This document shows positions 5,844 through 30,874 of a stretch of 42,072 nucleotides of DNA, piece after piece (position 1 is the stretch's first letter; the number at the start of each line of letters is the position of its first letter). The stretch spans positions 1-42,072 of the forward strand of contig NZ_JAAHHW010000051.1 of NCBI RefSeq assembly GCF_010692325.1, read 5' to 3'. The notes under the pieces were generated by a model. That model saw nothing but the letters and a program-made list of their open reading frames with translations, ran no database searches and was not told where the DNA came from. Both the position numbers and the translations under genes were made by a program. This DNA is from Moorena sp. SIO3I8. GTDB lineage: Bacteria; Cyanobacteriota; Cyanobacteriia; Cyanobacteriales; Coleofasciculaceae.

Positions 5844-7160
5844 TTATACATCAAAAGGGAAGAGGCGGTCGAGGAAGGGGTTAGAAAAAAGTCGATCAGG
5901 ATCAAATTCTTTCATAAGTAGAGCGAAGTCATCCCAACGTGGGTATTGTGAGCGCAGATATTCCCGATTGGAATAAAAGTGCTTGCCCCAGTTGGGACGG
6001 CCACCATACTCTAATAATATCTTTTCGGCTTCCCGGTGATAGTTTTCAATCACCTTAAAATCTGACCCTGATAAGTTAAGGCTAATATATACCGATTCTC
6101 TTTGATACAGTGGGCTTAACCAATGCTCTTCAGAACTAGCAAATCGAACTGATATGGGTAGGTTTATCCTAAATCCCTGGTTTTCTATCATCTGGTGAAT
6201 TTGCTCCAGAGCTTTGATTGCAGCTGACCTTGGTATGGCATACTCTAACTCGGAATATGTGAAATTAATATTCTCAAAGGCGAGGATATTAAAGCTCTTA
6301 TCCCAACGGTTTAATCCCCGTAGATTAGTCATAAAAGCTACTCTAAAGATGAGAGGAATTAGAGCAGGAAAACTCCTGGTAATCCAGTCACCGATTCCAC
6401 TGCCGGATCTAGATATAGTTCTAGATAGGTTGTCTAGGAATTGTCTCCAGAATGGCATGGGCGCAACTGGCTCATCCATTTTATTAAACTTAAAGGAATA
6501 GGAGCGTGAGGTGTGGGGAAATTCAAAGAATTGGAAATGATCGTTTTCTTTGACTAGTGTGTCTATTTCTTTTCTTATCAGGTCGGTCAACATAGGTTGT
6601 TGAATATCTCGCAAGAAGAATGTCGGGACACAACGAAGGGTTAATCTAGTAATAATACCAAGGGCACCCAAGTTGACACATACTCCATAAAATGTTGGAT
6701 TATCTTGTTGGTAGCGGACAACTTCCCCGGATGCTTTCATTAGCTCCAGCTCGACCACTGCACTGGCCAGTGAGCCGTTTTTGTCTCCTGTTCCATGGGT
6801 AGCCATTGCTATTGCACCAGAAATAGTCTGCTTGGTGATTGCTCCCAGGTTTTCCAAGGCCATTCCGTGTTGGTCTAGGTATTGATTCAAGCTGTTTAGT
6901 GTTATTCCTGGCTCGACAGTAACGGTCCCCCGTTCTCGGTCTAGCTCGATTACCCGGTTTAGTCGCTTCAAGGATACCAGAACACCATCGGTGCATGCAG
7001 CTTCTGACCATGAGTGCCCCGAACCAACCACCTTAACTTTCATCCTTTCGGTTCGAGCCATGGCAAGAACTTTCTTGAGATCTTCGTTAGAAGACGGCTC
7101 GACAATACTTTTGGGGTTGCAAGAAACATTACCCCTCCAATTTGACCAAGTAACTGACAT
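5844..7160 (-). CDS. FAD-linked oxidoreductase, D-arabinono-1,4-lactone oxidase family
   Basis: A 438-residue protein with an N-terminal PCMH-type FAD-binding domain and a C-terminal aldonolactone-oxidase domain. VVGSGHSWSE (about residues 44-53) holds His49, at the position of the flavin-linked histidine in this family. HGTGDKNGSLASAV (122-135) is the conserved pyrophosphate-binding segment. The C-terminal signature is visible as PNWGKHFY followed by FDPDRLFSNPF. Relatives oxidise aldono-1,4-lactones or sugar alcohols with O2; the substrate here cannot be told. Length is normal for the family. The gene lies 64 bases downstream of the methyltransferase on the same strand and could be read from the same transcript, though nothing in its function ties it to that group. 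Confidence 0.85.
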   Translation of the reverse strand: MSVTWSNWRGNVSCNPKSIVEPSSNEDLKKVLAMARTERMKVKVVGSGHSWSEAACTDGVLVSLKRLNRVIELDRERGTVTVEPGITLNSLNQYLDQHGMALENLGAITKQTISGAIAMATHGTGDKNGSLASAVVELELMKASGEVVRYQQDNPTFYGVCVNLGALGIITRLTLRCVPTFFLRDIQQPMLTDLIRKEIDTLVKENDHFQFFEFPHTSRSYSFKFNKMDEPVAPMPFWRQFLDNLSRTISRSGSGIGDWITRSFPALIPLIFRVAFMTNLRGLNRWDKSFNILAFENINFTYSELEYAIPRSAAIKALEQIHQMIENQGFRINLPISVRFASSEEHWLSPLYQRESVYISLNLSGSDFKVIENYHREAEKILLEYGGRPNWGKHFYSNREYLRSQYPRWDDFALLMKEFDPDRLFSNPFLDRLFPFDV

Positions 7161-7224
7161 ATTAATTTATGAAAAATATTGTAATGGTTATTCTATATTT
7201 TAGCATAGAATACTCATTGCTTAT

Positions 7225-8925
7225 TTAGATCTCGTTATCTCTAATCACAGCTCGCTCCTTTGGTGTCAATCCATAAATTTCAGACACTGCATAGTTTCCA
7301 AGGTTAATATCTCTTGTGTTTGCTGCTTCTATTAGCATTCTTTGAAGATTCTCTGAAATACTTTGCCACTGAGGAAGTCTGATTCGCCGCAAGTATTGTG
7401 CTTGAAAGCGAAGATAGCCTCCCCTGAGCTGAGTTGAGTAAATAGATACAAATAGTTTAGCTATACCTGATTTGAGAACTGTTTGAAGTGCCTTTAAGTC
7501 CCACTCTTGTGAAGTAATGAAATAAAGGTTATGATGAGGGTAAAATTTTCCATCTTCATAGACGATATGTGCCTTGGATTTAATATCAGGAATTAGCAGT
7601 TTAGGGTAAGTGGTCAGGCTAGGATAAATTCTATCAATTGTTCTGTACCAATTTTTGGGATTTTTCTTGGCACAGTTCCGTTTCAAAATTCTATCGGAAT
7701 GTTGGGCAAGGTAACTTGCCAGCTTGGGATAATTTTCAAGTTCAACTAAAGAACCATTGTCGTGAAATGGGTTTACAACACCAAGGCCACCCCACTTGAT
7801 AATACCAGTTTTAATATCTTGTGTCTTGACTAAAGGCAATTTTCTATCGGGTTCAACCTCCAGTTTTTCAAAGGGTCTAATGTAAACTTTATCTGCTCCG
7901 GTTGCTACACCAATGCCTACCTTACAACCAACCTCTTCTAAACTAGGAAAGTCTTCTTCCAGGCGACGAACTACCATAAGTTCTTCAACAGAATCTAGAA
8001 TCCATGGTTTTGAACCATTTGTTACACCCGTAAGCTCGATGATACCACTTTCCGGACAAATAGAGTCAGCACAAAAATTTTGTGCTAGTTTCTTAAGTGT
8101 GTTGTATTCAACTAATGGTCGATGAGCAACTCGAACAACTTCGGACTTTTGGCACTTGATGACTGTAATCCCAGGATAAGCACTAACTTCAGTGCGAAAC
8201 GCTTGAGTATCGACCATATCAATATAGTAAGCAAGATGATAATGATCAGAAACCATTGCTCGTAGTAGCTTACCGTATTTATTCTTTAGCCATTGATTGG
8301 CACAAATAAAACCTAAAACTCCTCCAGGTTCCAGACTACATAGGGCCCGTTCAATAAAAGGGACATATAAATCTGCTCGATCATATATAGTGTTATATCT
8401 GGCTCGATACTCGGCCAAGAGAATATCCGGAATCAGCTCTTGCCGAACATAAGGCGGATTGCCAACTGCATGAGTAAATGAGCCTGGTAAATCTACAAGT
8501 AGGAAGTCCCCTTGAATCAGCCAGGCTGTTAGCAATTGATAGGCGTCATCTTTATTAATTCCATGGTACTGGAGCAACCTTAAAAGTTTAATTCTGGTAT
8601 TTTCAAAGCTTTGAGGATTGATCTCAACTGCACGAATAGAATTGTGGAGACTATCAACTAGTCTGATTTGATTAGAATCATGAGCAGCATAAGCAGTTAA
8701 CAGTCGCTCTACAATCGGAACAAGAAAGTCACCATCACCAATCGAGGGTTCAAGTATCCGATAGTCTGGCAAAGGGCGATCTACGGTATAACCTGTCAGG
8801 TCAAGAATGAACTCTACAACCTCACGTCGGGTAAAAATTGCTCCTCGTTCTTCACTACTCTTTGCTGCAAAGCTTCTGACAGCAGAAGAAAAATCAAATA
8901 ATGGCAAGGTTAGTTGCTGTTCCAT
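7225..8925 (-). CDS. Eco57I-like N6-adenine DNA methyltransferase
   Basis: A 566-residue class gamma adenine methyltransferase. [20 protein letters not shown] (28-47) is the typical N-terminal lead-in. [11 protein letters not shown] (58-68) is the SAM-binding motif I, and [10 protein letters not shown] (154-163) contains the NPPY catalytic motif. The C-terminal half (about residues 400-530) resembles a TaqI-type target-recognition domain, with PKLLIPDI and [16 protein letters not shown]. It would methylate adenine in a specific site, whose identity is not deducible. No N-terminal PD-(D/E)XK nuclease segment and no adjacent restriction gene are visible, so it is a solitary methyltransferase or works with its neighbours. 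It starts only 37 bases after the smaller TPR gene on the same strand, suggesting co-transcription with the TPR/ATPase group. Confidence 0.88.
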
Positions 8926-8962
8926 TGTGACCGGACCATGACTTCTGGTATTTTAAGGTATA

Positions 8963-10285
8963 TTAGTTTCTTAGCTGAATCAGTAGTTTAGCAATATGAC
9001 GTTGAAGGTTTTCCCAATCTTCGGGAAAGTAGTCACGGGTAAAGATTTCTGAGGCATTTTCATAGCATGCGATCGCATTTTCCAAATTGTCTGTAGTCTC
9101 TCCTACTATTCTGTTGCTGTAAGCATTACCTAGGTTATATAGGGTCCTTGCCCACTCTTCGGGGAAGTCTCGTTTGGTATAAACCTCCAAAGCTAGTTGG
9201 TATTGGGCAATAGCAATTTCGAGATTATCAGCCCGGTCTCCACGGATTCTGTCACTGTAGGCTATGCCCAGGTTGTTGTGAGTACTTGCCCAATCTTCGG
9301 GGAAATCTGGTTTGGTGCGAACGTCCAATGCTAGTTGGTATGCTTCTATGGCAATTTCGAGATTATCAGCCCGGTCTCCACGGATTCTTTCACAGTAGGC
9401 ATTGCCCAGGTTATAGTGAGTGATCGCCCAATCAATGGGGAAGTCTGGTTTGGTGCGAACTTCCAAGGCTAGTTGGAATGCTTTAATAGCAATTTCGAGA
9501 TTATCAGCCCGGTCTCCACGGATTCTTTCACAGTAAGCTATGCCCAGGTTGTTTTGAGTACTTGCCCAATCTTCGGGGAAGTCTGATTTGGTATAAACCT
9601 CCAAGGCTATTTGGTATGCATCTATGGCTTTTTCGAGATTATTAGCCCGATTGCCACGGATTCTGTCACAGTAGGCATTGCCCAGGTTGTTTTGAATAGC
9701 TGCCCAAATTTCTGGGTTACTATGATTAGTAAAAAACGTTAGCATCGTTTGGTAACCGGCAATAGCGATTTCCCTGTTGTTGGCTGGATTACCCAGTGGA
9801 AAATCGCTGATCATAGTGCTGAATTCCCAGATAGTATTAGCGATATCTTTTGCTATTTCTGGTTCCGCTTCTGAGAGTTTAGCACTTGCCCAGGTTTGCA
9901 GGATATTGATAAAGTTATGATCGAGTTTATCTAAGTTTTCTTCCAGAAGTTGGTAGACAACTTCGCCGTCACCTTTGCTGTTGTTAGTTGCTAGCAATAC
10001 CTCGTCTAAAAATTGCTGATACTCTTCCGATGAAGCCTTAGCTGAAGTAAGGGTTTCTGAACTTTCCAGACCCTTTAAAAGCTTACTCCTGATCCGCCGT
10101 AAAAAGTCAGCAGCATTTTGCTGACCCTTTGCTGTCAGATATTCGGCTGATTGTGCCATTACCTGCAATAAATCTGCATCCACTAACTCGCGGTTGCTAT
10201 TAATAATTTTGATTTCTTTACCCTTGGGACAAGTTAGGAGCTGGTGGAGCAATTTGAGGTATTGTTGTCTTCTTTGTTGGTTCAT
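8963..10285 (-). CDS. TPR-repeat protein (46-residue repeats), smaller paralogue
   Basis: A 440-residue protein. The N-terminal ~150 residues form a helical domain (starting QRRQQYLKLLHQLLTC, then NRELVDADLLQVMAQ) that is shared with the protein at 11700-14207 and typical of cyanobacterial TPR/CHAT-type signalling proteins. Five full 46-residue TPR-like repeats and one partial repeat follow, each with a core such as AIEAYQLALDVRTKPDFPED followed by NNLGIAY. The repeats would form a superhelical protein-binding scaffold. No catalytic domain is attached: the chain ends within the last repeat, with no CHAT protease. It lies downstream of the ATPase gene (152-base gap containing two copies of a palindromic repeat) and 37 bases upstream of the methyltransferase. 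A scaffold or adaptor role is inferred. Confidence 0.8.
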   Translation of the reverse strand: MNQQRRQQYLKLLHQLLTCPKGKEIKIINSNRELVDADLLQVMAQSAEYLTAKGQQNAADFLRRIRSKLLKGLESSETLTSAKASSEEYQQFLDEVLLATNNSKGDGEVVYQLLEENLDKLDHNFINILQTWASAKLSEAEPEIAKDIANTIWEFSTMISDFPLGNPANNREIAIAGYQTMLTFFTNHSNPEIWAAIQNNLGNAYCDRIRGNRANNLEKAIDAYQIALEVYTKSDFPEDWASTQNNLGIAYCERIRGDRADNLEIAIKAFQLALEVRTKPDFPIDWAITHYNLGNAYCERIRGDRADNLEIAIEAYQLALDVRTKPDFPEDWASTHNNLGIAYSDRIRGDRADNLEIAIAQYQLALEVYTKRDFPEEWARTLYNLGNAYSNRIVGETTDNLENAIACYENASEIFTRDYFPEDWENLQRHIAKLLIQLRN

Positions 10286-10304
10286 TTTTAGTTATTCAGC
10301 TAAT

Positions 10305-10371
10305 GCGCTACGCGCACGCTACGCGAACAGCCATGAGCCAATGCGCTACGCGCACGCTACGCGAACAGCTA
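10305..10371. repeat. Two copies of a palindromic GCGCTACGCGCACGCTACGC repeat
   Basis: Two direct copies, about 35 bases apart, of AATGCGCTACGCGCACGCTA followed by CGCGAACAGC lie between the ATPase and the smaller TPR gene. The same sequence recurs near 1680, 1770 and 17935. It is self-complementary in part and could form hairpins in the mRNA between the two genes. Confidence 0.8.
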
Positions 10372-10437
10372 TCAGCTTACCTCCCTATTCCCTCTTAATT
10401 ATAAATTCTTCATTCTTAATTCTTAATTCTTAATTCT

Positions 10438-11697
10438 TCATTCTTCTTCATCTGACTGCTCTGACGGAGGCAAAAGTATGGGATTCCCTTGATATTCCGC
10501 TGCTTTATCCGTAGGTAAACGACGCACTAAATCAAATTGGATTAATTTATCTAAAATCGGTAAAACTTGACTGAACTGTTGAGTTTTAATACGCTTGAGG
10601 TCATCCATGGTTACGTTTTCATCGGATAGCACTCCTTTTTCTAAAACTAAGTCAAGGACATAGTAATCTTCAGGAGTTAATTCTGACTGACCGCGCAGTT
10701 TCTGACTGACATACTCTAAACCTTGCTGAAATACCTCTGGTGTAATCTTTTCTGCTTGTAAATCCGCTGCTTTGAGTAATACATAATTAGCAATGCGATT
10801 AAACCAACGGGGTATCCCCTGGGAATGTGCGCACAGATTTCTAGCAGTTTCTAGAGTGAAGGGATGGACCGCATCAGGATTAGTTTCGTCTTTGCTAGTT
10901 TCTCTAATCCGGGCGCTAGCGAGATAGTTAATTAACATTTGATACGTGGTGGATTGGTCTAATGCTTTAATCTCTAATGCTAAATCAAATAACCCTCGTT
11001 CGGAGATCAACAAATCCCGAGTCAACCCGGAAGGATGCCCAGTCAAAATAAACCAAGCATCACCTTTGAGCATGCCTTGAGCATTGTGCAATAGTTGACG
11101 CACCTTAGCTGGGTCTTGTTTATCTAAATCATCGATAGCAATCACCACACGACTATAGGTTTCTAGCGCCCTTTCCAATAAGTCTTGAAAGGTGAGAGTG
11201 GGAAACTTTGGGGCATTAACCGGTTTAGCTTCCGTTTCAATACTTCCCCCAAACCCGGCGAATTTGGCATCAAACTTGGTTTTGGTTTTGCGAGTCGATT
11301 CACTCATCAATCCCATGGTGTTTAACAGTTGTTGCGCCCACTCATCCTCTGGCATATGTCGGGCTAGGGCAATCAAAGCAGCGGTTGCTAAATCAGTTTC
11401 AAAGGGTAGACTAATATAGGTAGCGAGAGTATCTTCACTTTTTCGTTGTAAGACGCTCAATACTTCTAAAATAAATGCTGTTTTACCAATACCAACGGAA
11501 CCGTAGACTAATATCCGCTTCCGTTCGCGACCCCGCAACAAATTAAATATCTGCTTTAACTCCTGGGTGCGACCTGTAAAAACTTTATCTAGGTTTGACC
11601 TCAAGCTAGAAGCACTTTCAGAAAAAGGAATTTCTTCAAGATTCCAGCTAGTCAAAATTTCGTTGTTTTCATCCCAAAGTTTATCGGCTTCACTCAT
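10438..11697 (-). CDS. AAA ATPase (ORC/CDC6-like, STAND-type NTPase module)
   Basis: A 419-residue P-loop ATPase. Walker A is GSVGIGKT at 66-73 and Walker B is VVIAIDDLD at 184-192. A sensor-like WFILTGHPSG follows near 216-225, and a helical/winged region lies at about 300-400. An N-terminal FTGRTQELKQI (40-50) is the lead-in typical of AAA_16/ORC-type domains. The tail is acidic (SEQSDEEE). Such stand-alone ATPases act as NTP-dependent switches in signalling and defence proteins. The start ATG lies 2 bases after the stop of the upstream large TPR gene, so the two are translationally coupled and their products probably interact. No effector domain is fused to it. The specific function is not known. 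Confidence 0.82.
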   Translation of the reverse strand: MSEADKLWDENNEILTSWNLEEIPFSESASSLRSNLDKVFTGRTQELKQIFNLLRGRERKRILVYGSVGIGKTAFILEVLSVLQRKSEDTLATYISLPFETDLATAALIALARHMPEDEWAQQLLNTMGLMSESTRKTKTKFDAKFAGFGGSIETEAKPVNAPKFPTLTFQDLLERALETYSRVVIAIDDLDKQDPAKVRQLLHNAQGMLKGDAWFILTGHPSGLTRDLLISERGLFDLALEIKALDQSTTYQMLINYLASARIRETSKDETNPDAVHPFTLETARNLCAHSQGIPRWFNRIANYVLLKAADLQAEKITPEVFQQGLEYVSQKLRGQSELTPEDYYVLDLVLEKGVLSDENVTMDDLKRIKTQQFSQVLPILDKLIQFDLVRRLPTDKAAEYQGNPILLPPSEQSDEEE

Positions 11698-11699
11698 GG

Positions 11700-14207
11700 C
11701 TATGGCTTGGTTTTTATTTTGTTAATTACTTGGAGCAGTTGTTGAATATTATCAATTCCTTGCTTATCCTTAATTGTATGACAAATTTCATAAGCTTGGG
11801 TTAGTTCTTGTCTGGCATCGTCGATAAAGCCAATGGAAATCATCAGCATGCCTAATCCCGTTTTGCAGATAGCGATTCCTGGTTGATTATTGAGATGATT
11901 GTAGATGCGGAGAGCGTCCCGGTAATTCATCCGGGCTTTGTCTAGGTTCATGATTAAATGATGGGTGCGGGCAATGTGGTATACTGAATCGGCAAGGGCT
12001 TCTAGGTTTTCGGTGTGACTATAGATCGGGAGGCTTTGCTCTAAGCGGGATAATCCATCATACCAGCTTCCTTGCTGAACCAGCAGTTTACCAATATTAC
12101 GTTGAACGTCTGCCCAATATTCGGGAAACGCTTCACGGATGTAGAACTCTGAAGCATTTTGATAGGATGCGATCGCTTTTTCCAGATTCTCTGCACTATT
12201 TCCTAGTATTCTATTACTGTAGGTATTGCCCAGGTTATTTTGAGTAATTGCCCAAGCTTGGGGGAAGTCTGGTTTGGTATAAACGGACAATGCTAGTTGG
12301 TATGCTTCTATAGCAAGTTCAAGATTATCAGCTTTATCTCCACGGATTCTCTTACTGTAGGCATAGCCCAGGATGATTTGAGTAATTGCCCAAGCTTCGG
12401 GGAAGTCTTCTTTGGTATAAACGGACAATGCTAATTGGTATGCTTCTATGGCGAGTTCAAGATTATCAGCTTTATCTCCATTGATTCTGTAAAAGTAGGC
12501 ATTGCCCAGGTTATAGTGAGTGTTTGCCCACTTTTCAGGGAAGTCTGGTTTAGTATAAACGGATAAAGCTAGTTGGTATGCTTCTATGGCGAGTTCAAGA
12601 TTATCAGCTTTATCTCCATTGATTCTGTAAAAGTAGGCATTGCCCAGGTTATAGTGAGTGTTTGCCCACTTTTCAGGGAAGTCTGGTTTAGTATAAACGG
12701 ATAAAGCTAGTTGGTATGCTTCTATGGCGAGTTCTAAATTATCAGCTTTGTCTCCATTGATTCTGTCACTGTAGGCATAGCCCAGGTTATAGTGAGTTCT
12801 TGCCCAATCTTCAGGGAAGTCTAGTTTAGTATAAACGGATAAAGCTAGTTGGTATGCTTCTATGGCGAGTTCAAGATTATCAGCTTTATCTCCATTGATT
12901 CTGTAAAAGTAGGCATTGCCCAGGTTATAGTGAGTTCTTGCCCAATCTTCAGGGAAGTCTAGTTTAGTATAAACGGATAAAGCTAGTTGGTATGCTTCGA
13001 TAGCAAGTTCAAGATTATCAGCTTTGTCTCCATTGATTCTGTCACTGTAGGCATAGCCCAGGTTATAGTGAGTGTTTGCCCACTTTTCAGGGAAGTCTAG
13101 TTTAGTATAAACGGATAAAGCTAGTTGGTATGCTTCTATGGCGAGTTCAAGATTATCAGCTTTATCTCCATTGATTCTGTCAAAGTAGGCATTGCCCAGG
13201 TTATAGTGAGTGATTGCCCAATCTTCAGGGAAGTCTAGTTTAGTATGAACGGACAAAGCTAGTTGGAATGCTTCTATGGCGAGTTCAAGATTATCAGCTT
13301 TATCTCCATTGATTCTGTAAAAGTAGGCATAGCCCAGGTTATTTTGAGTGCTTGCCCAATTTTTGGGGAAGTCTGGTTTAGTATAAACGGATAAAGCTAG
13401 TTGGTATGCTTCTATGGCGAGTTCTAAATTATCAGCTTTATCTCCATTGATTCTGTAAAAGTAGGCATAGCCCAGGTTATTTTGAGTGCTTGCCCAATTT
13501 TTGGGGAAGTCTGGTTTAGTATAAACGGATAAAGCTAGTTGGTATGCTTCTATGGCGAGTTCTAAATTATCAGCTTTATCTCCATTGATTCTGTTTATGT
13601 AGGCATTGCCCAGGTTATATTGAGTGTTTGCCCAATCTTGGGGGAAGTCTGGTTTGGTGAAAACTGTTAGCACCTGTTCGTAACCAGCAATGACGATTTC
13701 CATATTATTGGCTTTATTGCCCAGATAAAAATCGTCGATAATGTAGCTAAAATTCCAGATAGTATTAGCGATTTCTTTTGCTATTTCTGGTTCCGCTTTT
13801 AAGAATTTATCACTTGCCCAGGTTTTTAAAATATCGATAAAGTTATGATCGAGTTTGTCTAGATTTGCTTCCAGGAGTGGGTAGACTACTTCGGGGTCGC
13901 TATTGCTGTTATCAGTTGCTAGCAATACCTCTTTCAAGAATTCCAGATAGTCTTGGGATGAAGCATTAACTAAACTAGAGGATTCTGAAATTATCTCTAA
14001 AAGCTCACTCCTGAGACTACCTAAAAATTCAGCAGCGTTTTGGTTCCCATCGGCTGCTATTTTTTCTGCTACTACTGCCATTACCTGCAATAATTCTGCA
14101 TCCACTAACTCGCGGTTACTCTCAAGAATTTGATCGTCTTCACCGCTGGCACAAGTTAGCAGTTGCTGGATCAAGTTGAGGTATGCTTGTCTTCTTTGTT
14201 CGTCCAT
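11700..14207 (-). CDS. Large TPR-repeat protein with 11 near-identical 46-residue repeats
   Basis: An 835-residue protein, first gene of the TPR-ATPase-TPR-methyltransferase run. Residues 1 to about 170 match the N-terminal helical domain of the smaller TPR protein (QRRQAYLNLIQQLLTC, NRELVDAELLQVMAV). Eleven full 46-residue repeats plus a degenerate twelfth follow, with core LELAIEAYQLALSVYTKPDF and then NLGNAYFYRINGDKADN. Repeats 2 and 3 are identical in protein sequence, as are 8 and 9, and the 138-bp DNA units are nearly identical, so the array expanded recently. The last ~130 residues hold more typical 34-residue TPRs. No enzyme domain is attached. Probably a cytoplasmic scaffold whose variable length may tune partner binding. 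Confidence 0.82.
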   Translation of the reverse strand: MDEQRRQAYLNLIQQLLTCASGEDDQILESNRELVDAELLQVMAVVAEKIAADGNQNAAEFLGSLRSELLEIISESSSLVNASSQDYLEFLKEVLLATDNSNSDPEVVYPLLEANLDKLDHNFIDILKTWASDKFLKAEPEIAKEIANTIWNFSYIIDDFYLGNKANNMEIVIAGYEQVLTVFTKPDFPQDWANTQYNLGNAYINRINGDKADNLELAIEAYQLALSVYTKPDFPKNWASTQNNLGYAYFYRINGDKADNLELAIEAYQLALSVYTKPDFPKNWASTQNNLGYAYFYRINGDKADNLELAIEAFQLALSVHTKLDFPEDWAITHYNLGNAYFDRINGDKADNLELAIEAYQLALSVYTKLDFPEKWANTHYNLGYAYSDRINGDKADNLELAIEAYQLALSVYTKLDFPEDWARTHYNLGNAYFYRINGDKADNLELAIEAYQLALSVYTKLDFPEDWARTHYNLGYAYSDRINGDKADNLELAIEAYQLALSVYTKPDFPEKWANTHYNLGNAYFYRINGDKADNLELAIEAYQLALSVYTKPDFPEKWANTHYNLGNAYFYRINGDKADNLELAIEAYQLALSVYTKEDFPEAWAITQIILGYAYSKRIRGDKADNLELAIEAYQLALSVYTKPDFPQAWAITQNNLGNTYSNRILGNSAENLEKAIASYQNASEFYIREAFPEYWADVQRNIGKLLVQQGSWYDGLSRLEQSLPIYSHTENLEALADSVYHIARTHHLIMNLDKARMNYRDALRIYNHLNNQPGIAICKTGLGMLMISIGFIDDARQELTQAYEICHTIKDKQGIDNIQQLLQVINKIKTKP

Positions 14208-23360: not shown

Positions 23361-23502
23361 GCTATTAACTTGCTGGGGGGCAAAGCCCCCTGGCAAAACC
23401 ATCGGGTTTGCTCCCATGGGAGCATGTCTGGAATGGTGTGAAATCTGAATTCATAAGGTTTACCTAGCCGTAGATAGTATTTCTGCGGCTATTTTTTTTG
23501 TT

Positions 23503-23604
23503 AGGGAGTAGGGAGTAGGGAGTAGGGAGTAGGGAGTAGGGAGTAGGGAGTAGGGAGTAGGGAGTAGGGAGTAGGGAGTAGGGAGTAGGGAGTAGGGAGT
23601 AGTA
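23503..23604. repeat. Heptamer array (GGGAGTA)n
   Basis: About 14 uninterrupted copies of a 7-bp unit, directly downstream of the small gene at 23106. No gene. Confidence 0.92.
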
Positions 23605-23716
23605 GGAAGGAGGCATTTTATATTTGTAAAAATGAAGGAAATTTTTACAATTGTGGGGCGGGTGTACGGGTAGTGTGGGGATTTTTGTGGCAATTTTTCC
23701 CTAATTGTGAAAGTGA

Positions 23717-24044: not shown

Positions 24045-24965
24045 GTGCCAAGCGATAAACCGTTGACTTCCTTAACGGATTTAAAGGTTATTGGGGAATA
24101 CGATGATCCAGAGCTAATTGTATCTAAACTGGAGCAGATGAAGGACCCTGAATTTTTGGAGCAACCAGATGTTAGGGAAAAAGGGGTTGAAGATATCTTG
24201 AATATCTTCAACTCAGTTCAAAACCCGCCTTGGTCTCACGCCACCCATCAATTTGGCTATATTGCTCCACCTCCGCCTGGTTCTACAGAAGTCCAAGTCA
24301 TTCAACATCCGAGTGCCATAAAGGCGGATCCAACGTTAAAAAATAGTAGGCTAAATATTCGCCTTGATCGCCTGCGAATTCATAAGTATCCAGGGGGCGG
24401 TCTTCACAATGTTTTGGTTTCATTTGCTGCTCGCAATCAAGTGGCGGATGCTCAGGAGTTCGTTAGTTTTAGCCAAACTTATCGAGTGCCAGAAGGACAA
24501 TCAGCAGGAATCGCAGGCTATCCAGTTTTTATTGGTTTGAATGTCGGTTCTCAGGGGATTGCCTTTGAATGCTCTACAGTCAATGTCAAAAATGAAGCGG
24601 ATCAAGCGGTGTTATCTGCCTTAGAGTCTTCACCCTTTCAAACCGGTTTGGAACTATTAACTACTGCTCAACCTGCGATCGCACCCTTCACAACTCTCAC
24701 CTTAGGATTAGTCAAAGCCCTCGCTAAACGTAATGAAAATGTACCGGTGCAGAAGTTTTATTTAGGGTTAGACTTTGAAGATGCGGCCATGGGAATTCGT
24801 CTGGCGGAAGGTAATTATATTGCTGTTCAAGTTCCCGATGAGACCACTATTGACTGGAACAAGTGGATTTATAAACCACAATTAGGCCAGATCCTTCACA
24901 AAGCTGATGGCTCATCCCTGGAATACAACTACCTGGTGTTTCGGGTTAGTCGTTATGTGGATTAA
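24045..24965 (+). CDS. Unknown 306-residue protein upstream of caspase gene
   Basis: I do not recognise this protein. It starts with GTG at 24045; there is no in-frame ATG upstream and the next is 40 codons in. The first ~90 residues look helical and acidic (ELIVSKLEQMKDPEFLEQPD), ending in a proline-rich hinge (IAPPPPGSTEV). The middle (about 95-190) reads like a beta-sandwich, with NIRLDRLRIHKYPGGGLHNV and QTYRVPEGQSAGIAGYPVFI. A helical segment with ALESSPFQTGLELLTTAQPA follows, then a beta-rich end (KADGSSLEYNYLVFRVSRYV). There is no signal peptide or membrane helix. It lies 126 bases before the caspase-like gene on the same strand, with an STRR array between. It may be a partner or substrate of the protease. 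Confidence 0.7.
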   Translation: MPSDKPLTSLTDLKVIGEYDDPELIVSKLEQMKDPEFLEQPDVREKGVEDILNIFNSVQNPPWSHATHQFGYIAPPPPGSTEVQVIQHPSAIKADPTLKNSRLNIRLDRLRIHKYPGGGLHNVLVSFAARNQVADAQEFVSFSQTYRVPEGQSAGIAGYPVFIGLNVGSQGIAFECSTVNVKNEADQAVLSALESSPFQTGLELLTTAQPAIAPFTTLTLGLVKALAKRNENVPVQKFYLGLDFEDAAMGIRLAEGNYIAVQVPDETTIDWNKWIYKPQLGQILHKADGSSLEYNYLVFRVSRYVD

Positions 24966-25017
24966 GGAAAGTAAGCATTCAGCTATCAGTGGGTTACCCT
25001 ATCGCTAACCCAACCTA

Positions 25018-25064
25018 CTGCTCCCGACTCCCGACTCCCGACTCCCGACTCCCGACTCCCTGCT
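25018..25064. repeat. Heptamer array (CCGACTC)n before the caspase gene
   Basis: About six copies of a GACTCCC-type heptamer end roughly 25 bases before the caspase start codon. The same unit precedes the Uma2 gene at 27380. Confidence 0.88.
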
Positions 25065-25091
25065 CCCTTACATGAAAAAGGATTAAATAAG

Positions 25092-26222
25092 ATGCCCCAA
25101 CAATTTAATCATGGCTATGCTTTGCTGATTGGTGTAGGAGAATCTAGATATTCGCGCTTATCTCTACCTGTAACAGTTAACGATACTCAAGCCATTTATG
25201 CGGCGCTTATTGATCCGGAATTATGTGCTTATCCAGATAATAACGACCATATTCGAGTATTAAATAACAAAGAAGCAACACGAGACAATATTCTAGAGGG
25301 GTTGCAATGGTTACAGGAGTCAGCAAAAGCTGATCCAGAAGCTACAATCTTCGTCTACTACTCAGGCCATGGTTTGTTGAATAAAGAGGACAATCGTTAC
25401 TACTTATTACAACACGATATTAAACTTACTAAACTGGCTGCTTCCGCATTATCCGCTGAAGTTTTCACCGAAGCTCTGCGACAAATTCCAGCAGAACGTT
25501 TATTAGTGGTAATTGATAGTTGTCATGCAGCAGGAATGGCAACTTCCAAAGATCCAGAGGAAATCATCCGTGAAGTAGAAAAGGTAGATATAGAGCTGGC
25601 TGATGAATTCGAGGATTTCCAGCGGGTTTCTCCTTCCAAGGGATTCGTCGAGCAACTGAAACAAGGAAAAGGACGAGTTGTGTTCACTTCTTCCAGGGGT
25701 GAAGAAAAGTCTTGGATACATCCAGATGGACTGTATAGCATTTACACCAATCATTTTCTGGAAGCGTTACAGGGTGCTGCCAATAAACCAGGTGATACAG
25801 ACGTGAAAGTTTCTAACGTGATGAATCATCTTAGTAAAGTTGTTCCTGAAAGCGTTCGTAAGTTTTATCAAAAACAGCAAACCCCTAATTTTGATATGGC
25901 CACAGAAGATTTTGTAATTGCTAAACTTAAAGGTGGTAAAGGTTTTAAGGGATGGCAGGAGGAGGAATCTGAAGCTGAGGAGAAGATTAAAGAGCTTGCT
26001 TCTGTAGAGATTAAAGCAGCAGGTGATGGTGCAGTTGCCGCACAAAATTCTACAGTTATAGCTGGAGCGGATGTTATTGGCGAGGGTATTGTATTTGGCA
26101 ATCAAAACACTGTTGAGAACAAGACTATGAATCAAAATACTACTGATAATTATACAAAATATAACATCAAGATCAACAAAGGCGAAAATATTAAAATTGG
26201 TGACAAATCTGAGGATAATTAA
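25092..26222 (+). CDS. Caspase-like (peptidase C14) protein with C-terminal IxIGD motif
   Basis: A 376-residue metacaspase/C14 cysteine peptidase. GYALLIGVGESRY opens the p20 domain, FVYYSGHGLLNKED carries the catalytic His93, and LLVVIDSCHAAGM carries the catalytic Cys144. The p10-like part runs to about residue 275. A charged linker (EEESEAEEKIKELA) and a repetitive beta-strand-like tail (AAQNSTVIAGADVIGEGIVF) follow, and the chain ends KINKGENIKIGDKSEDN. The GxxIxIGD motif is like those of effector-associated adaptor regions in bacterial conflict proteins and recurs in the next gene. Both catalytic residues are present, so it is probably active, cleaving after basic residues as C14 enzymes of this type do. 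It is cytoplasmic by sequence. Confidence 0.9.
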   Translation: MPQQFNHGYALLIGVGESRYSRLSLPVTVNDTQAIYAALIDPELCAYPDNNDHIRVLNNKEATRDNILEGLQWLQESAKADPEATIFVYYSGHGLLNKEDNRYYLLQHDIKLTKLAASALSAEVFTEALRQIPAERLLVVIDSCHAAGMATSKDPEEIIREVEKVDIELADEFEDFQRVSPSKGFVEQLKQGKGRVVFTSSRGEEKSWIHPDGLYSIYTNHFLEALQGAANKPGDTDVKVSNVMNHLSKVVPESVRKFYQKQQTPNFDMATEDFVIAKLKGGKGFKGWQEEESEAEEKIKELASVEIKAAGDGAVAAQNSTVIAGADVIGEGIVFGNQNTVENKTMNQNTTDNYTKYNIKINKGENIKIGDKSEDN

Positions 26223-26235
26223 TTACAATGTCATA

Positions 26236-26390
26236 AGAGGTTGTCTGAGAAGTATCATTTGCTACATCCAAGCCCCCTAAATCCCCCAATTTTGGGGGAC
26301 TTTTACCAGCCAATTGGATTCTTGTTCCCCCCAGAATTGGGGGGCTAGGGGGGCAAAATTCAGTATCAAAAAACTTTTCAGATATCCTCT
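26236..26390. mobile_element. MITE-like element, family C
   Basis: A 155-bp element with 18-bp imperfect terminal inverted repeats, AGAGGTTGTCTGAGAAGT on the left and AGAGGATATCTGAAAAGT (other strand) on the right. It contains an internal CCCCCAATTTTGGGGG hairpin. It lies between the caspase gene and the IxIGD gene. I could not define a target-site duplication. Confidence 0.75.
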
Positions 26391-26451
26391 AACAAGCACT
26401 AGAAAAACGTAGATGATTTTTTATCAAAAATGTAGTAAATAGTAACCTAAA

Positions 26452-27186
26452 ATGCCAGTTGATAACCCTAGTGATATTATAAAGCGCATTCAATCAGGTA
26501 ACTGGAATGAATCTGATCTAGAATCTTTGCGTCAATTGCTCCAGAGTAATGATAACGACACCCTACAACAACTGAGTAAATTCAATATTTCTATTGATGA
26601 AGGTAAAGACATTCATATAGGCGATCGCAATTATTTTAATTGGAGCGATGAAGCTATTCAAGCGGTTGTGGAAGTAGTGCAACAGGGTAAAGGGGTTGCC
26701 GTTTTTAATCCCACAGGGAAAGTTACCATCTACAACTACAACAACAACTTTAGGGAGGAGCAATCTACACCTGAACTTACACGATTAGTTACCAAACTTA
26801 ACAATGCCCGGCTGCAAGGTGAAGAAGGCGATCGCAAAACAGGAAGCTTTTATACTTATAACATTTGGTTAGAGGATGTATCTCTGGAAAATTCCCACGA
26901 TTCTACTGAAGATAATTGCCATATACAACAGTATACCATCACCGGAAAATGGAACTCAAAAGTTTACACAGAAATAAATGCCTTCGGTTTACGAGTTGAT
27001 ACACCTTGGGGACACAATAAAACCCCCCATGGACAGTTCACGGTTAAAGTTGAAATACTCAATGGACGAGTTACCCAAATTAAACCTGATGTAGCTCGAT
27101 ATAATGATAGTGCAAATAACTACGCAGCTGACAAAGCAAAAAAATTAATTAAGTCAGAAATAAGTGGGGTTTTGCGAGTTTTTTAA
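26452..27186 (+). CDS. Protein with N-terminal IHIGD adaptor-like segment and unknown C-terminal domain
   Basis: A 244-residue protein. The first ~75 residues match an adaptor-type segment seen in cyanobacterial conflict proteins: a helical stretch (DIIKRIQSGNWNESDLESLR), then NISIDEGKDIHIGDRNYFNW, then a short helix (DEAIQAVVEVVQ). Residues 80-100 add beta strands (NPTGKVTIYNYNNNF). The C-terminal ~145 residues (about 100-244) form an unrecognised domain containing TGSFYTYNIWLEDVSLENS and TPWGHNKTPHGQFTVKVEIL; no catalytic motif is evident. The IHIGD motif pairs with IKIGD at the end of the caspase encoded just upstream, which suggests the two proteins are linked through like adaptor elements. 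It is on the same strand, but a 155-bp MITE-like element separates them. Confidence 0.72.
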   Translation: MPVDNPSDIIKRIQSGNWNESDLESLRQLLQSNDNDTLQQLSKFNISIDEGKDIHIGDRNYFNWSDEAIQAVVEVVQQGKGVAVFNPTGKVTIYNYNNNFREEQSTPELTRLVTKLNNARLQGEEGDRKTGSFYTYNIWLEDVSLENSHDSTEDNCHIQQYTITGKWNSKVYTEINAFGLRVDTPWGHNKTPHGQFTVKVEILNGRVTQIKPDVARYNDSANNYAADKAKKLIKSEISGVLRVF

Positions 27187-27279: not shown

Positions 27280-27379
27280 TATCCTTTTTTATAATTATAA
27301 AATACACTTAGGTTTCTTCTCCCGACTCCCGACTCCCGACTCCCGACTCCCGACTCCCGACTCCCTTTCCTAAACAATC
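27280..27379 (+). promoter_or_regulatory. Leader of the first Uma2 gene with embedded heptamer array
   Basis: ATAATTATAAAATACACTTA, then GGTTTCT, is followed by about seven GACTCCC copies and CTTTCCTAAACAATCATGAC at the start codon. The same leader, with a different array unit and number, precedes the Uma2 gene at 30278. The AT-rich part is the likely promoter. Confidence 0.55.
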
Positions 27380-27952
27380 ATGACTTCCTTAACCCTTGAT
27401 TTCCAATCAATTAACCTTACCGACGAGCAATTTTTCCAGCTTTGTCAAGACAACCATGATTTAAAATTTGAACGCAATGCTAATGGAGATTTAATTATTA
27501 TGTCACCTACTGGCGGCAGCACAGGAAACCGTAATCTAGAAATAGGCTACCAACTTCAAGGCTGGAGCCGTCAAAACAAGTTGGGAATTGCTTTCGATTC
27601 TTCCACTGGTTTTAAACTCCCCAATGGTGCCGACCGTTCTCCGGATGCATCTTGGATACCATTACAAAGCTGGAATAGTTTAACTCCTCAACAGCAAGAG
27701 AAATTTTTGCCCCTATGTCCTGACTTTGTGATTGAATTACGTTCTCCTAGTGATACCTTAACAGCAATTCGAAAAAAAATGGAAGAATACCGAGACAATG
27801 GCACTCGTTTAGGTTGGTTGATTAATCGCAAAGAGCGACAAGTCGAAATTTATCGACCAGGTAGAGAGGTGGAAGTTTTAGAGTCTCCCACTCGTTTATC
27901 GGGAGAAGAGGTTTTGCCTGGTTTTGTGCTGTATCTTGATTTAATTTGGTGA
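27380..27952 (+). CDS. Uma2-family (DUF820) putative PD-(D/E)XK nuclease
   Basis: A 190-residue protein of the Uma2/DUF820 family, a group with a PD-(D/E)XK nuclease-like fold that is strongly expanded in cyanobacteria. Conserved points are LIIMSPTGGSTGN, the ADRSPDASWI segment with its acidic residue, FVIELRSPSD (the E-x-R/K position) and the terminal IYRPGREVEVLESP/LSGEEVLPGF block. Length is typical. Biological role and target are unknown; they are often annotated as endonucleases without direct proof. It is a near-duplicate of the gene at 30278: N- and C-terminal parts are almost identical while the middle differs. Its leader is also duplicated. Confidence 0.88.
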   Translation: MTSLTLDFQSINLTDEQFFQLCQDNHDLKFERNANGDLIIMSPTGGSTGNRNLEIGYQLQGWSRQNKLGIAFDSSTGFKLPNGADRSPDASWIPLQSWNSLTPQQQEKFLPLCPDFVIELRSPSDTLTAIRKKMEEYRDNGTRLGWLINRKERQVEIYRPGREVEVLESPTRLSGEEVLPGFVLYLDLIW

Positions 27953-27966
27953 AAGCTTAAAAGCAG

Positions 27967-28647
27967 TCAAAGCTCAAAATCCTCTGGATCTATCCCTTTC
28001 GCTTTCAATTGTTCCAGCAATGATTGCATACGACTTCTTTCTTGATCTAGAGCTTTCTCCGCTTGCTCTTTGAGTTCAACAATTTCCAAATAGCTCGCAA
28101 ACCGCTCACCATTAGGATAATACAGTACCAATTCTGACTCTACTAACTCAAAGGTAATTCCTAAACGGGGACTAACCCAAGCATGCATCTGGGGGATTGG
28201 TTCTAAGGTTTCTCCTGAACGCAACCAGCCTTTTAGTGTTGTCCGATTTGGATCATAGATATAGTACTCTTCTACTTTATGGTTTTGGTAAAACTTGAGT
28301 TTATCCTCTTCTAATTCTTTGATAGTGTTTGTGTGTGAGGCTATTTCAAAAACTACCTGGGGATTAATGTTATCTTCAACCCAAGTTTTGTAAGAACGCC
28401 GATGCCCTTTCGGTCTACCGATCACCACCATCACATCGGGTGCTTGGTTAATTTTTGGTTGTCCTTCTACTGGATACCACAACAAATCCCCTGCTACAAA
28501 CACATTGGGGTCATCTTTAAATTTAAGGTCTAGGCCAGACTTAATGGTAGTAATTAGTTCAAATTGAAGGGTATTGTCCGCCAAAGGTTGGCCGTCACTT
28601 TCGGGATAAAAAATGTCATCGGTAGTTGGTTGGATCTGCTGAACCAT
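27967..28647 (-). CDS. Uma2-family (DUF820) protein
   Basis: A 226-residue Uma2/DUF820 protein of a different subgroup from the copies at 27380 and 30278. FVAGDLLWYPVEG, then APDVMVVIGRPKGHRRSYKT and VVFEIASHTNTIKELEEDKL, give the PDVxVV and ExxS...K positions of the nuclease-like fold. The C-terminus is a short coiled-coil-like helix (ELKEQAEKALDQERSRMQSL). The frame is open to 28725, but those codons come from a GGGAATCGG repeat, so the ATG at 28645-28647 is chosen. It is convergent with the Uma2 gene at 27380, with stop codons about 14 bases apart. Confidence 0.86.
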   Translation of the reverse strand: MVQQIQPTTDDIFYPESDGQPLADNTLQFELITTIKSGLDLKFKDDPNVFVAGDLLWYPVEGQPKINQAPDVMVVIGRPKGHRRSYKTWVEDNINPQVVFEIASHTNTIKELEEDKLKFYQNHKVEEYYIYDPNRTTLKGWLRSGETLEPIPQMHAWVSPRLGITFELVESELVLYYPNGERFASYLEIVELKEQAEKALDQERSRMQSLLEQLKAKGIDPEDFEL

Positions 28648-28775
28648 TGTTAAACTTTTACCTGAGCTGATAATGAAGAATAGGGAATCGGGAATCGGTA
28701 ATCGGGAATCGGGAAAATGGAGCAACTCGTTCCAAGTTATTGATCATAAACTCAGTGCATCTCCTACCTTTTGGT

Positions 28776-30277: not shown

Positions 30278-30874
30278 ATGACCACCTTAACCCTTGATCT
30301 CCAATCAATTAACCTTACCGACGAGCAATTTTTCCAGCTTTGTCAAGACAACGACGATTTGAAATTTGAACGCAATGCTAATGGAGATTTAATTATTATG
30401 TCACCCACTGGCGGCAGCACAGGAAACCGGAATGGTAGATTAAACCAACAGTTGTTTAACTGGAGTGATTCCGATCGCGTAGCGTGGCCTTCGGCCTTTG
30501 GAACTGGCATTGCTTTCGATTCTTCCACTGGTTTTAAACTCCCCAATGGAGCAGACCGTTCTCCCGATGCTTCTTGGATACCCTTAGCACGCTGGAATAG
30601 TTTAACTCCTCAACAGCAAGAGAAATTTTTGCCCCTATGTCCTGACTTTGTGATTGAGTTACGTTCTCCTAGTGATCCCATAACAGCAATTCGAAAAAAA
30701 ATGGAAGAATACCGAGACAATGGCACTCGTTTAGGTTGGTTGATTAATCGTAAAGAGCGACAATTGGAAATTTATCGACCAAGTAGAGATGTTGAAGTTT
30801 TAGAGTCTCCCAGTAGTTTATCGGGAGAAGAAGTTTTGCCTGGTTTTGTGTTGTATCTTGATTTAATTTGGTGA
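30278..30874 (+). CDS. Uma2-family (DUF820) protein, paralogue of 27380, with in-frame repeat insert
   Basis: A 198-residue near-copy of the Uma2 protein at 27380. The first ~50 residues and the last ~120 are almost identical. The middle differs: here it reads GRLNQQLFNWSDSDRVAWPS, then AFGTG, against LEIGYQLQGWSRQNKLG in the other. The DRVAWPSAFG part is encoded by GATCGCGTAGCGTGGCCTTC, then GGCC, a palindromic repeat that is normally intergenic in such genomes. It has inserted in frame, lengthening a surface-loop region. The nuclease-like residues (SPDASWI, FVIELRSPSD) are kept, so the protein may still be functional. Role unknown. Confidence 0.87.
   Translation: MTTLTLDLQSINLTDEQFFQLCQDNDDLKFERNANGDLIIMSPTGGSTGNRNGRLNQQLFNWSDSDRVAWPSAFGTGIAFDSSTGFKLPNGADRSPDASWIPLARWNSLTPQQQEKFLPLCPDFVIELRSPSDPITAIRKKMEEYRDNGTRLGWLINRKERQLEIYRPSRDVEVLESPSSLSGEEVLPGFVLYLDLIW

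Follow-up and report, generated by a model that had tools for sequence, protein, structure and literature searches.

The window analysed here, a stretch of 42,072 nucleotides from Moorena sp. SIO3I8 (contig NZ_JAAHHW010000051.1), carries between positions 24045 and 27186 three genes on the same strand, encoding a protein of 306 amino acids (P1), a caspase-like protease of the C14 family, and a third protein (P3) that begins with the effector-associated domain EAD10. We consider it probable that this set supplies the effector half of a caspase-based defence module of the abortive-infection type that is coupled through EAD10. The features of the locus are as follows:

24045-24965, + strand: P1, open reading frame (ORF) of 306 aa, caspase companion with no recognised fold
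25092-26222, + strand: C14 caspase-like protease, ORF of 376 aa, Peptidase_C14 at 72.9 bits
25368-25370, + strand: codon of caspase His93
25521-25523, + strand: codon of caspase Cys144
26010-26141, + strand: G/N-rich segment of the caspase tail, ahead of the mini-EAD10
26139-26207, + strand: mini-EAD10, the C-terminal tail of the caspase (residues 350-372) with IKIGD
26272-26354, no strand: inverted repeat between the caspase and P3 genes, 27-nt arms, 81% complementary
26452-27186, + strand: P3, EAD10 protein, ORF of 244 aa
26461-26676, + strand: EAD10 domain of P3, PF19954 at 84.8 bits (cut-off 24.1)
26611-26625, + strand: IHIGD motif of P3
26749-27183, + strand: P3C, C-terminal domain formed by residues 100-244 of P3, a putative effector domain of TULIP-like, lipid-binding type

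An earlier note, made from the letters alone, had described three genes, a caspase with His93 and Cys144 and a pair of IxIGD motifs, and all of these were recovered. The second protein shows both the domain and the His-Cys dyad of a C14 caspase-like peptidase: Peptidase_C14 (PF00656) lies well above its cut-off of 21.4 bits, and both residues are kept in 25 of 25 caspases compared, the window caspase among them. PADLOC, run on the three proteins, returned a generic caspase match only. Across the 11,709 residues of window ORFs that were scanned, the pattern IxIGD occurs just twice, as IKIGD at caspase residue 367 and as IHIGD at P3 residue 54.

This resemblance goes beyond chance. Residues 4-75 of P3 are an EAD10 domain (E 4.2e-24; 87.3 bits in the genome search), and residues 350-372 of the caspase align to positions 38-60 of the Pfam EAD10 model (E 0.011), so that the tail corresponds to the beta part of EAD10 and has none of the helices from the N-terminal side of the domain. 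The motif is thus shared, as the earlier note had held, and it is not nameless, since it belongs to EAD10. When the 8-Mb genome (510 contigs) was searched for EAD10 in all six frames, the caspase tail and P3 were the only places found at E<=0.1. A local hidden Markov model (HMM) made from EAD10 domains, with the caspase tails left out, matches 12 of 15 P1-linked caspase tails at E<=1e-3; the window tail is not among them. Tails of the relatives mostly finish in a near variant of GKFITNI..A.GIHIGDV, with loci L013 and L028 as exceptions. In L012 (7856-9910) the IHIGD-type motif of a P1-linked caspase lies internally and is followed by a DUF900 alpha/beta-hydrolase, and L103 (6682-7251) holds a broken caspase of the same kind with a still legible mini-EAD10 tail, in a genome without a P1 match.

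The G/N-rich segment ahead of the mini-EAD10 has no second copy in the genome at E<=10. By eye, a counterpart is present in L116 and in none of the other 14 P1-linked caspase tails. It is perhaps a second or former docking motif.

P1 is a constant companion of the caspase. It directly precedes the caspase gene in 15 of 15 distinct loci with readable downstream DNA, including L026, where the P1 frame is shortened. This count leaves out L020 and L027 (contigs of L016 and L017), L023 and L029 (which end within P1) and L030 (a 38-residue match only). Beyond these loci, a Tolypothrix plasmid encodes a short P1 (178 aa) ahead of the same caspase. Scattered homologues, which would have spoken against a coherent set, were therefore not what the neighbourhood survey found. 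Homologues share 63-81% identity with P1 in cyanobacteria and 37-40% on two proteobacterial plasmids. The protein is present in 6 of 386 genomes sampled from the phylum (7 places), and a named genome collection contributed 13 P1 loci (two on contigs already counted, one the 38-residue match). A further EAD10 protein is encoded in 10 of the 15 P1-caspase loci by single-sequence search and in 12 of 15 by the local HMM, to which 7 of these loci had contributed. All six P1 genomes fall among the 15 of 386 that have EAD10 above the cut-off (hypergeometric 1.1e-9, uncorrected for relatedness and resting largely on the same loci).

No family was assigned to P1 in Pfam, NCBIfam, PADLOC or PHROGs at the thresholds applied, and Pfam recognised no nuclease family in either P1 or P3 at E<=1. 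The best Foldseek match of the P1 model (E 0.039) was set aside and not used. At E<=10 the family profile of P1 (A4) reached two PDB chains, the better one at E 2.3; no gasdermin was among them, a result that does not exclude this fold. Three scans of viral contigs found no P1, no Rhizobium P1 relative and no P3C, and phage records held no match to the Rhizobium relative.

Two further proteins were seen near P1. A nuclease-related NERD protein (PF08378) of about 218 aa with hydrophobic segments lies at L013 5491-6147, L014 8235-8891, L017 7466-8119, L018 5725-6378, L019 5632-6282 and L021 5468-6121 (the L013 copy was scanned with Pfam, the others were recognised by eye); the window ORFs showed no such gene. 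The other protein, about 1,120 aa long, combines helicase-type AAA domains with a PLD-like domain and stands near the P1-caspase pair at L018 12785-16144 (scanned), with similar ORFs, judged by eye, in L013, L019, L021 and L028.

The P1 relatives on the Rhizobium (40% identity) and Undibacterium (37%) plasmids are encoded directly behind genes for an AAA ATPase and an S8 protease, which PADLOC identifies as IetA (4e-125, Rhizobium plasmid) and IetS (1.7e-244). The Undibacterium copy is annotated with 191 aa only, and the match continues in a second piece. P1 is therefore a partner of two unrelated protease families, the C14 caspases and the S8 protease IetS. An IetS match was obtained in 65 plasmid records, six of which were opened for their neighbourhood; in four of the six loci no match of the P1 search follows, with the reservation that in L071 the small gene behind ietS entered no comparison of its own. 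P1 thus accompanies only part of the IetA-IetS systems. The earlier note had left P1 without a recognised fold, which stands here for fold and family alike, and had listed sensor among its possible roles; a dedicated sensor is now less likely, because relatives of P1 also accompany IetA-IetS.

In relatives of the window locus, EAD10 is also found on the core component of the system (VMAP, iSTAND, STAND or GAP1), namely in L012, L015, L026, L116 and L117. The order in L115, L116 and L117 is caspase, EAD10-P3C and EAD10-STAND, with nSTAND1-WD40 as the STAND part in L115 and L116 and NACHT in L117. The L116 contig opens with a C-terminal P1 piece, so that this locus reads P1 piece, caspase, EAD10-P3C and EAD10-nSTAND1-WD40, at 77% (81 aa), 79% and 78% identity to the window for the P1 piece, the caspase and P3, respectively. 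In L012 and L015 one EAD10 partner is a VMAP protein, adjoining an AAA ATPase; together with the next gene, this ATPase resembles the MoxR-vWA pair of a ternary system. The set of three described in the earlier note is accordingly incomplete, in that relatives add an EAD10-STAND or EAD10-VMAP protein.

The tails of such caspases are not all of one kind. Besides the beta part of EAD10 with its divergent forms, those seen include three or more beta motifs of other kinds, a helical segment and a TIR domain. Tails outside EAD10 that resemble the N-terminal part of the neighbouring protein occur in Pseudanabaena L063 (NB-ARC-TPR), Herpetosiphon L065 (NACHT-FGE) and L100 (NACHT-HEAT). Calothrix L064 and L095 have EAD10-like forms common to tail and neighbour; since the L095 neighbour reaches 24.7 bits, just above the Pfam cut-off, both were classed as divergent EAD10, which leaves L063, L065 and L100 as the three other beta classes. 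In L099 the caspase (6617-7588) has a helical C-terminal segment that matches the N-terminal end of an iSTAND protein encoded next to it (7896-9029; score 123, shuffle z 19), which is followed by an AAA ATPase. The genome of the window itself encodes a second caspase (6794-8032 of L101, G000:C2:62000-76000) with a C-terminal TIR domain, beside a TIR-nSTAND1-WD40 protein (8209-12363; z 29); the layout of the coupling is unchanged, a folded domain replacing the short motif.

The fit between tails and neighbours was assessed on 37 non-duplicate caspase loci, each contributing one tail that was scored against the neighbours at its own and at all other loci. The observed sum of own-locus scores was reached in none of 200,000 permutations, and 21 of the 37 tails outscore all 100 of their own shuffles at the home locus. 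For L067 the wrong ORF was picked (score 38), and L102 and L103 are broken caspases of which one piece each was scored. An earlier run on 18 loci had given 0/200,000, with 251/200,000 for a subset of six loci and 441/200,000 for the 11 P1-linked loci; because this set was partly hand-picked, several loci having been chosen after shared motifs had been noticed, the test was repeated on the 37. The like-with-like coupling proposed in the earlier note is thereby supported by the relatives. This data suggests that the caspase varies its docking motif to fit the adjacent sensor gene, and such matching of tail and neighbour is likely a wiring rule for bacterial self-destruct immunity.

P3C is a rare domain. 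At E<=0.01 it was found in 10 of 388 genomes sampled from the order (the window's own included, two of them weak), and among the seven other genomes with a strong match five carry EAD10 ahead of P3C and two, by eye, do not. Comparison of the P3C model with TULIP proteins (BPI/LBP, SPLUNC1, Mdm12) gave 5-7% identity in two matches at a model confidence of about 70; the top two Foldseek hits have TM-scores of just 0.14-0.22, and Aha1 and StARkin folds score nearly as high. Going by these predicted structures, P3C is perhaps a TULIP-like lipid-binding domain.

The genes are separated by 126 bases (P1 to caspase) and 229 bases (caspase to P3). A single operon is not proven, because of these gaps and the inverted repeat in the second, which is possibly a terminator or a repeat element. 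The genes are flanked or set apart by stretches of 7-base repeats (GGGAGTA, CTCCCGA) at 23500-23605, 25022-25063 and 27318-27365. Directly downstream, Pfam recognises three genes of the Uma2 family (27380-27952, 27967-28725 and 30278-30874).

Taken at the level of sequence, the gene set is real and conserved and probably works like an EAD-coupled conflict system. We hypothesize the following course. Upon infection, an EAD10-bearing sensor (STAND or VMAP) would oligomerise, and its EAD10 copies would collect the caspase tails and the EAD10 domain of P3 through homotypic contacts. The crowded caspase would be activated by proximity, as with initiator caspases, and may then cleave P1, its constant genetic companion, which would be activated or released. 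P3 would be recruited to the same assembly and deliver P3C, perhaps as a lipid-binding domain of TULIP type, onto the membrane. The killing steps and an assembly of amyloid type are what we infer beyond the gene set itself.

Several observations weigh against this model. The caspase tail scores 16.1 bits, under the Pfam EAD10 cut-off. Only 11 of the 37 tails score best at home, one of them being the wrong ORF of L067, and 14 have no clear match within their locus (L017, L022, L024, L025, L066, L092, L093, L094, L096, L097, L098, L102, L103 and L118), among them the P1-linked L017, L022, L024 and L025; many EAD10-type tails score equally well or better with other EAD10 loci. The predicted structure of P1 reaches a mean predicted local distance difference test (pLDDT) value of 50.6 (11 close homologues). 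Within the 386 genomes from the phylum, P3C is found in the window's own genome only and is missing from the five other P1 genomes. The six-frame search of the window's own assembly revealed no EAD10-STAND or EAD10-VMAP protein at E<=0.1, and the nearest relative of the L116 STAND in this genome aligns from residue 91 only, past the EAD10 domain. As no EAD10 sensor was found in the genome, the window copy may be incomplete, or may be triggered by P3 or P1 itself. A resident sensor was considered among the many relatives that the L116 STAND has in this genome and was rejected; two N-terminal parts were inspected and no EAD10 was seen in them.

If the rule of cognate tails is true, about 25 residues of tail would suffice to name the partner of a bacterial caspase, and the pairing of sensor and effector would become predictable from sequence; it would also tie the literature on EADs to that on amyloid signalling. 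P1 offers a concrete candidate for the target of these caspases and of IetS. To our knowledge, no substrate has been established for these caspase or IetS systems. More tentatively, we envisage that multicellular bacteria use one caspase chassis with an exchangeable C-terminal tail matching the N-terminal part of the sensor, that EAD10 is the meeting point of EAD adaptors and amyloids of the RHIM and BASS (bacterial amyloid signalling sequences) kind, and that P1 represents a new family of protease-triggered effectors common to caspase systems and IetA-IetS.

One alternative is a sharper form of our model, in which EAD10 consists of a helical part and an amyloid motif, and the motif of the sensor templates cross-beta fibres through the caspase tails, comparable to RHIM and to BASS with their NOD-like receptors (NLRs). 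We regard it as a serious possibility that still falls short of being probable. The core IxIGD presumably resembles the core pattern of RHIM, and the caspase retains the short beta part alone. Structures of RHIM fibres are to be expected in the PDB. Searched against it with E<=10 as the limit, the motif profiles (A5 and A7) returned no chain, which weighs against the amyloid and lends homology to RHIM no support. The AlphaFold model likewise stays below a pLDDT of 50 in the motif region. On the other hand, in L063 (NB-ARC), L065 (NACHT), L100 (NACHT) and L116 (nSTAND1) the effector has in its C-terminal part a motif that recurs in the N-terminal part of the adjacent STAND protein, the layout by which BASS were defined (PMC7889193, PMC9815663). 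According to Kaur et al., EAD10 is a domain of mixed alpha+beta type, which does not favour a bare amyloid motif.

It is rather unlikely that the window locus is the decayed remnant of a four-gene system that has lost its sensor and no longer functions in defence here. Such decay would account for the comparison with L116, where the same genes are followed about 230 bases on by EAD10-nSTAND1, at the place occupied by the Uma2 genes in the window, as well as for the repeats between the genes and the lack of any other EAD10 in the assembly. However, the three ORFs are intact, catalytic residues and motif are retained, and with 510 contigs the sensor may lie in an assembly gap.

It appears similarly doubtful that P1 is a regulator of the protease, such as an inhibitor or a chaperone, instead of its substrate or an effector. 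The occurrence beside both C14 and S8 proteases and the failure to recognise an enzyme or toxin family in P1 are in line with this. To inhibit both families, which are unrelated, P1 would have to find an interface that they have in common, whereas a partner processed by the protease would have no such need, although this is not decisive. That the genes are unrelated neighbours with a coincidental motif, as the two gaps with their repeats might suggest, is exceedingly improbable and is ruled out by the genome search finding EAD10 in two places, the adjacency of P1 and caspase in 15 of 15 loci, the gene order of L116 and the permutation test on 37 loci.

With respect to known systems, the likeness to IetA-IetS is that a P1 relative is encoded right behind ietS at two plasmid loci. 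The window set differs in that IetA is missing and the protease is a caspase instead of an S8 enzyme, and PADLOC reported no Iet match for its three proteins.

In the canu (caspase-nuclease) systems, gated nucleases are partners of both trypsin-like and caspase proteases (PMC12799240, available part). The window set shares with it a caspase with a partner gene and, through P1, one kind of partner serving different protease families. Unlike those nucleases, P1 and P3 have no Pfam nuclease match, as mentioned above.

The effectors reported for BASS are mainly Bell, less often CHAT or TIR, as far as the available passages go (PMC7889193, PMC9815663). The relatives L063, L065, L100 and L116 share with BASS/NLR signalosomes the motif on the effector and on the adjacent STAND NTPase. 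The differences are that the effector is a C14 caspase, the motif of P3 lies behind a helical segment, and the window locus has no STAND protein; no NLR gene stands directly beside the three window genes, and Uma2 genes follow.

The closest match is to EAD systems, whose like-with-like coupling, together with EAD10 itself, was described before (Kaur et al. 2020, 2021, as seen in part). P3 carries EAD10 fused to a remainder whose effector nature we infer, the neighbouring caspase an EAD10-derived tail, and relatives have EAD10 on VMAP or STAND proteins, with copies in adjacent genes. Copies from the same locus are more alike (37 loci, 0/200,000), with the own locus best in 11 of 37 only. In contrast to EAD systems as described, the caspase copy is the beta half only and sister caspases bear other tails fitting their neighbours. 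The window copy also lacks one defining feature, a core component with an EAD copy in the locus or genome, because none bearing EAD10 was found in the assembly. P1 as companion and P3C do not appear in the available passages of Kaur et al., and searches of the openly readable literature, to which subscription papers such as Dyrka et al. 2020 do not belong, showed no paper on a P1-caspase pair or on swapped caspase tails. The earlier suggestion of an undescribed module hence does not extend to the coupling principle or to EAD10, both of which are published; new are the neighbour-dependent caspase tail, the P1 family and the P3C domain.

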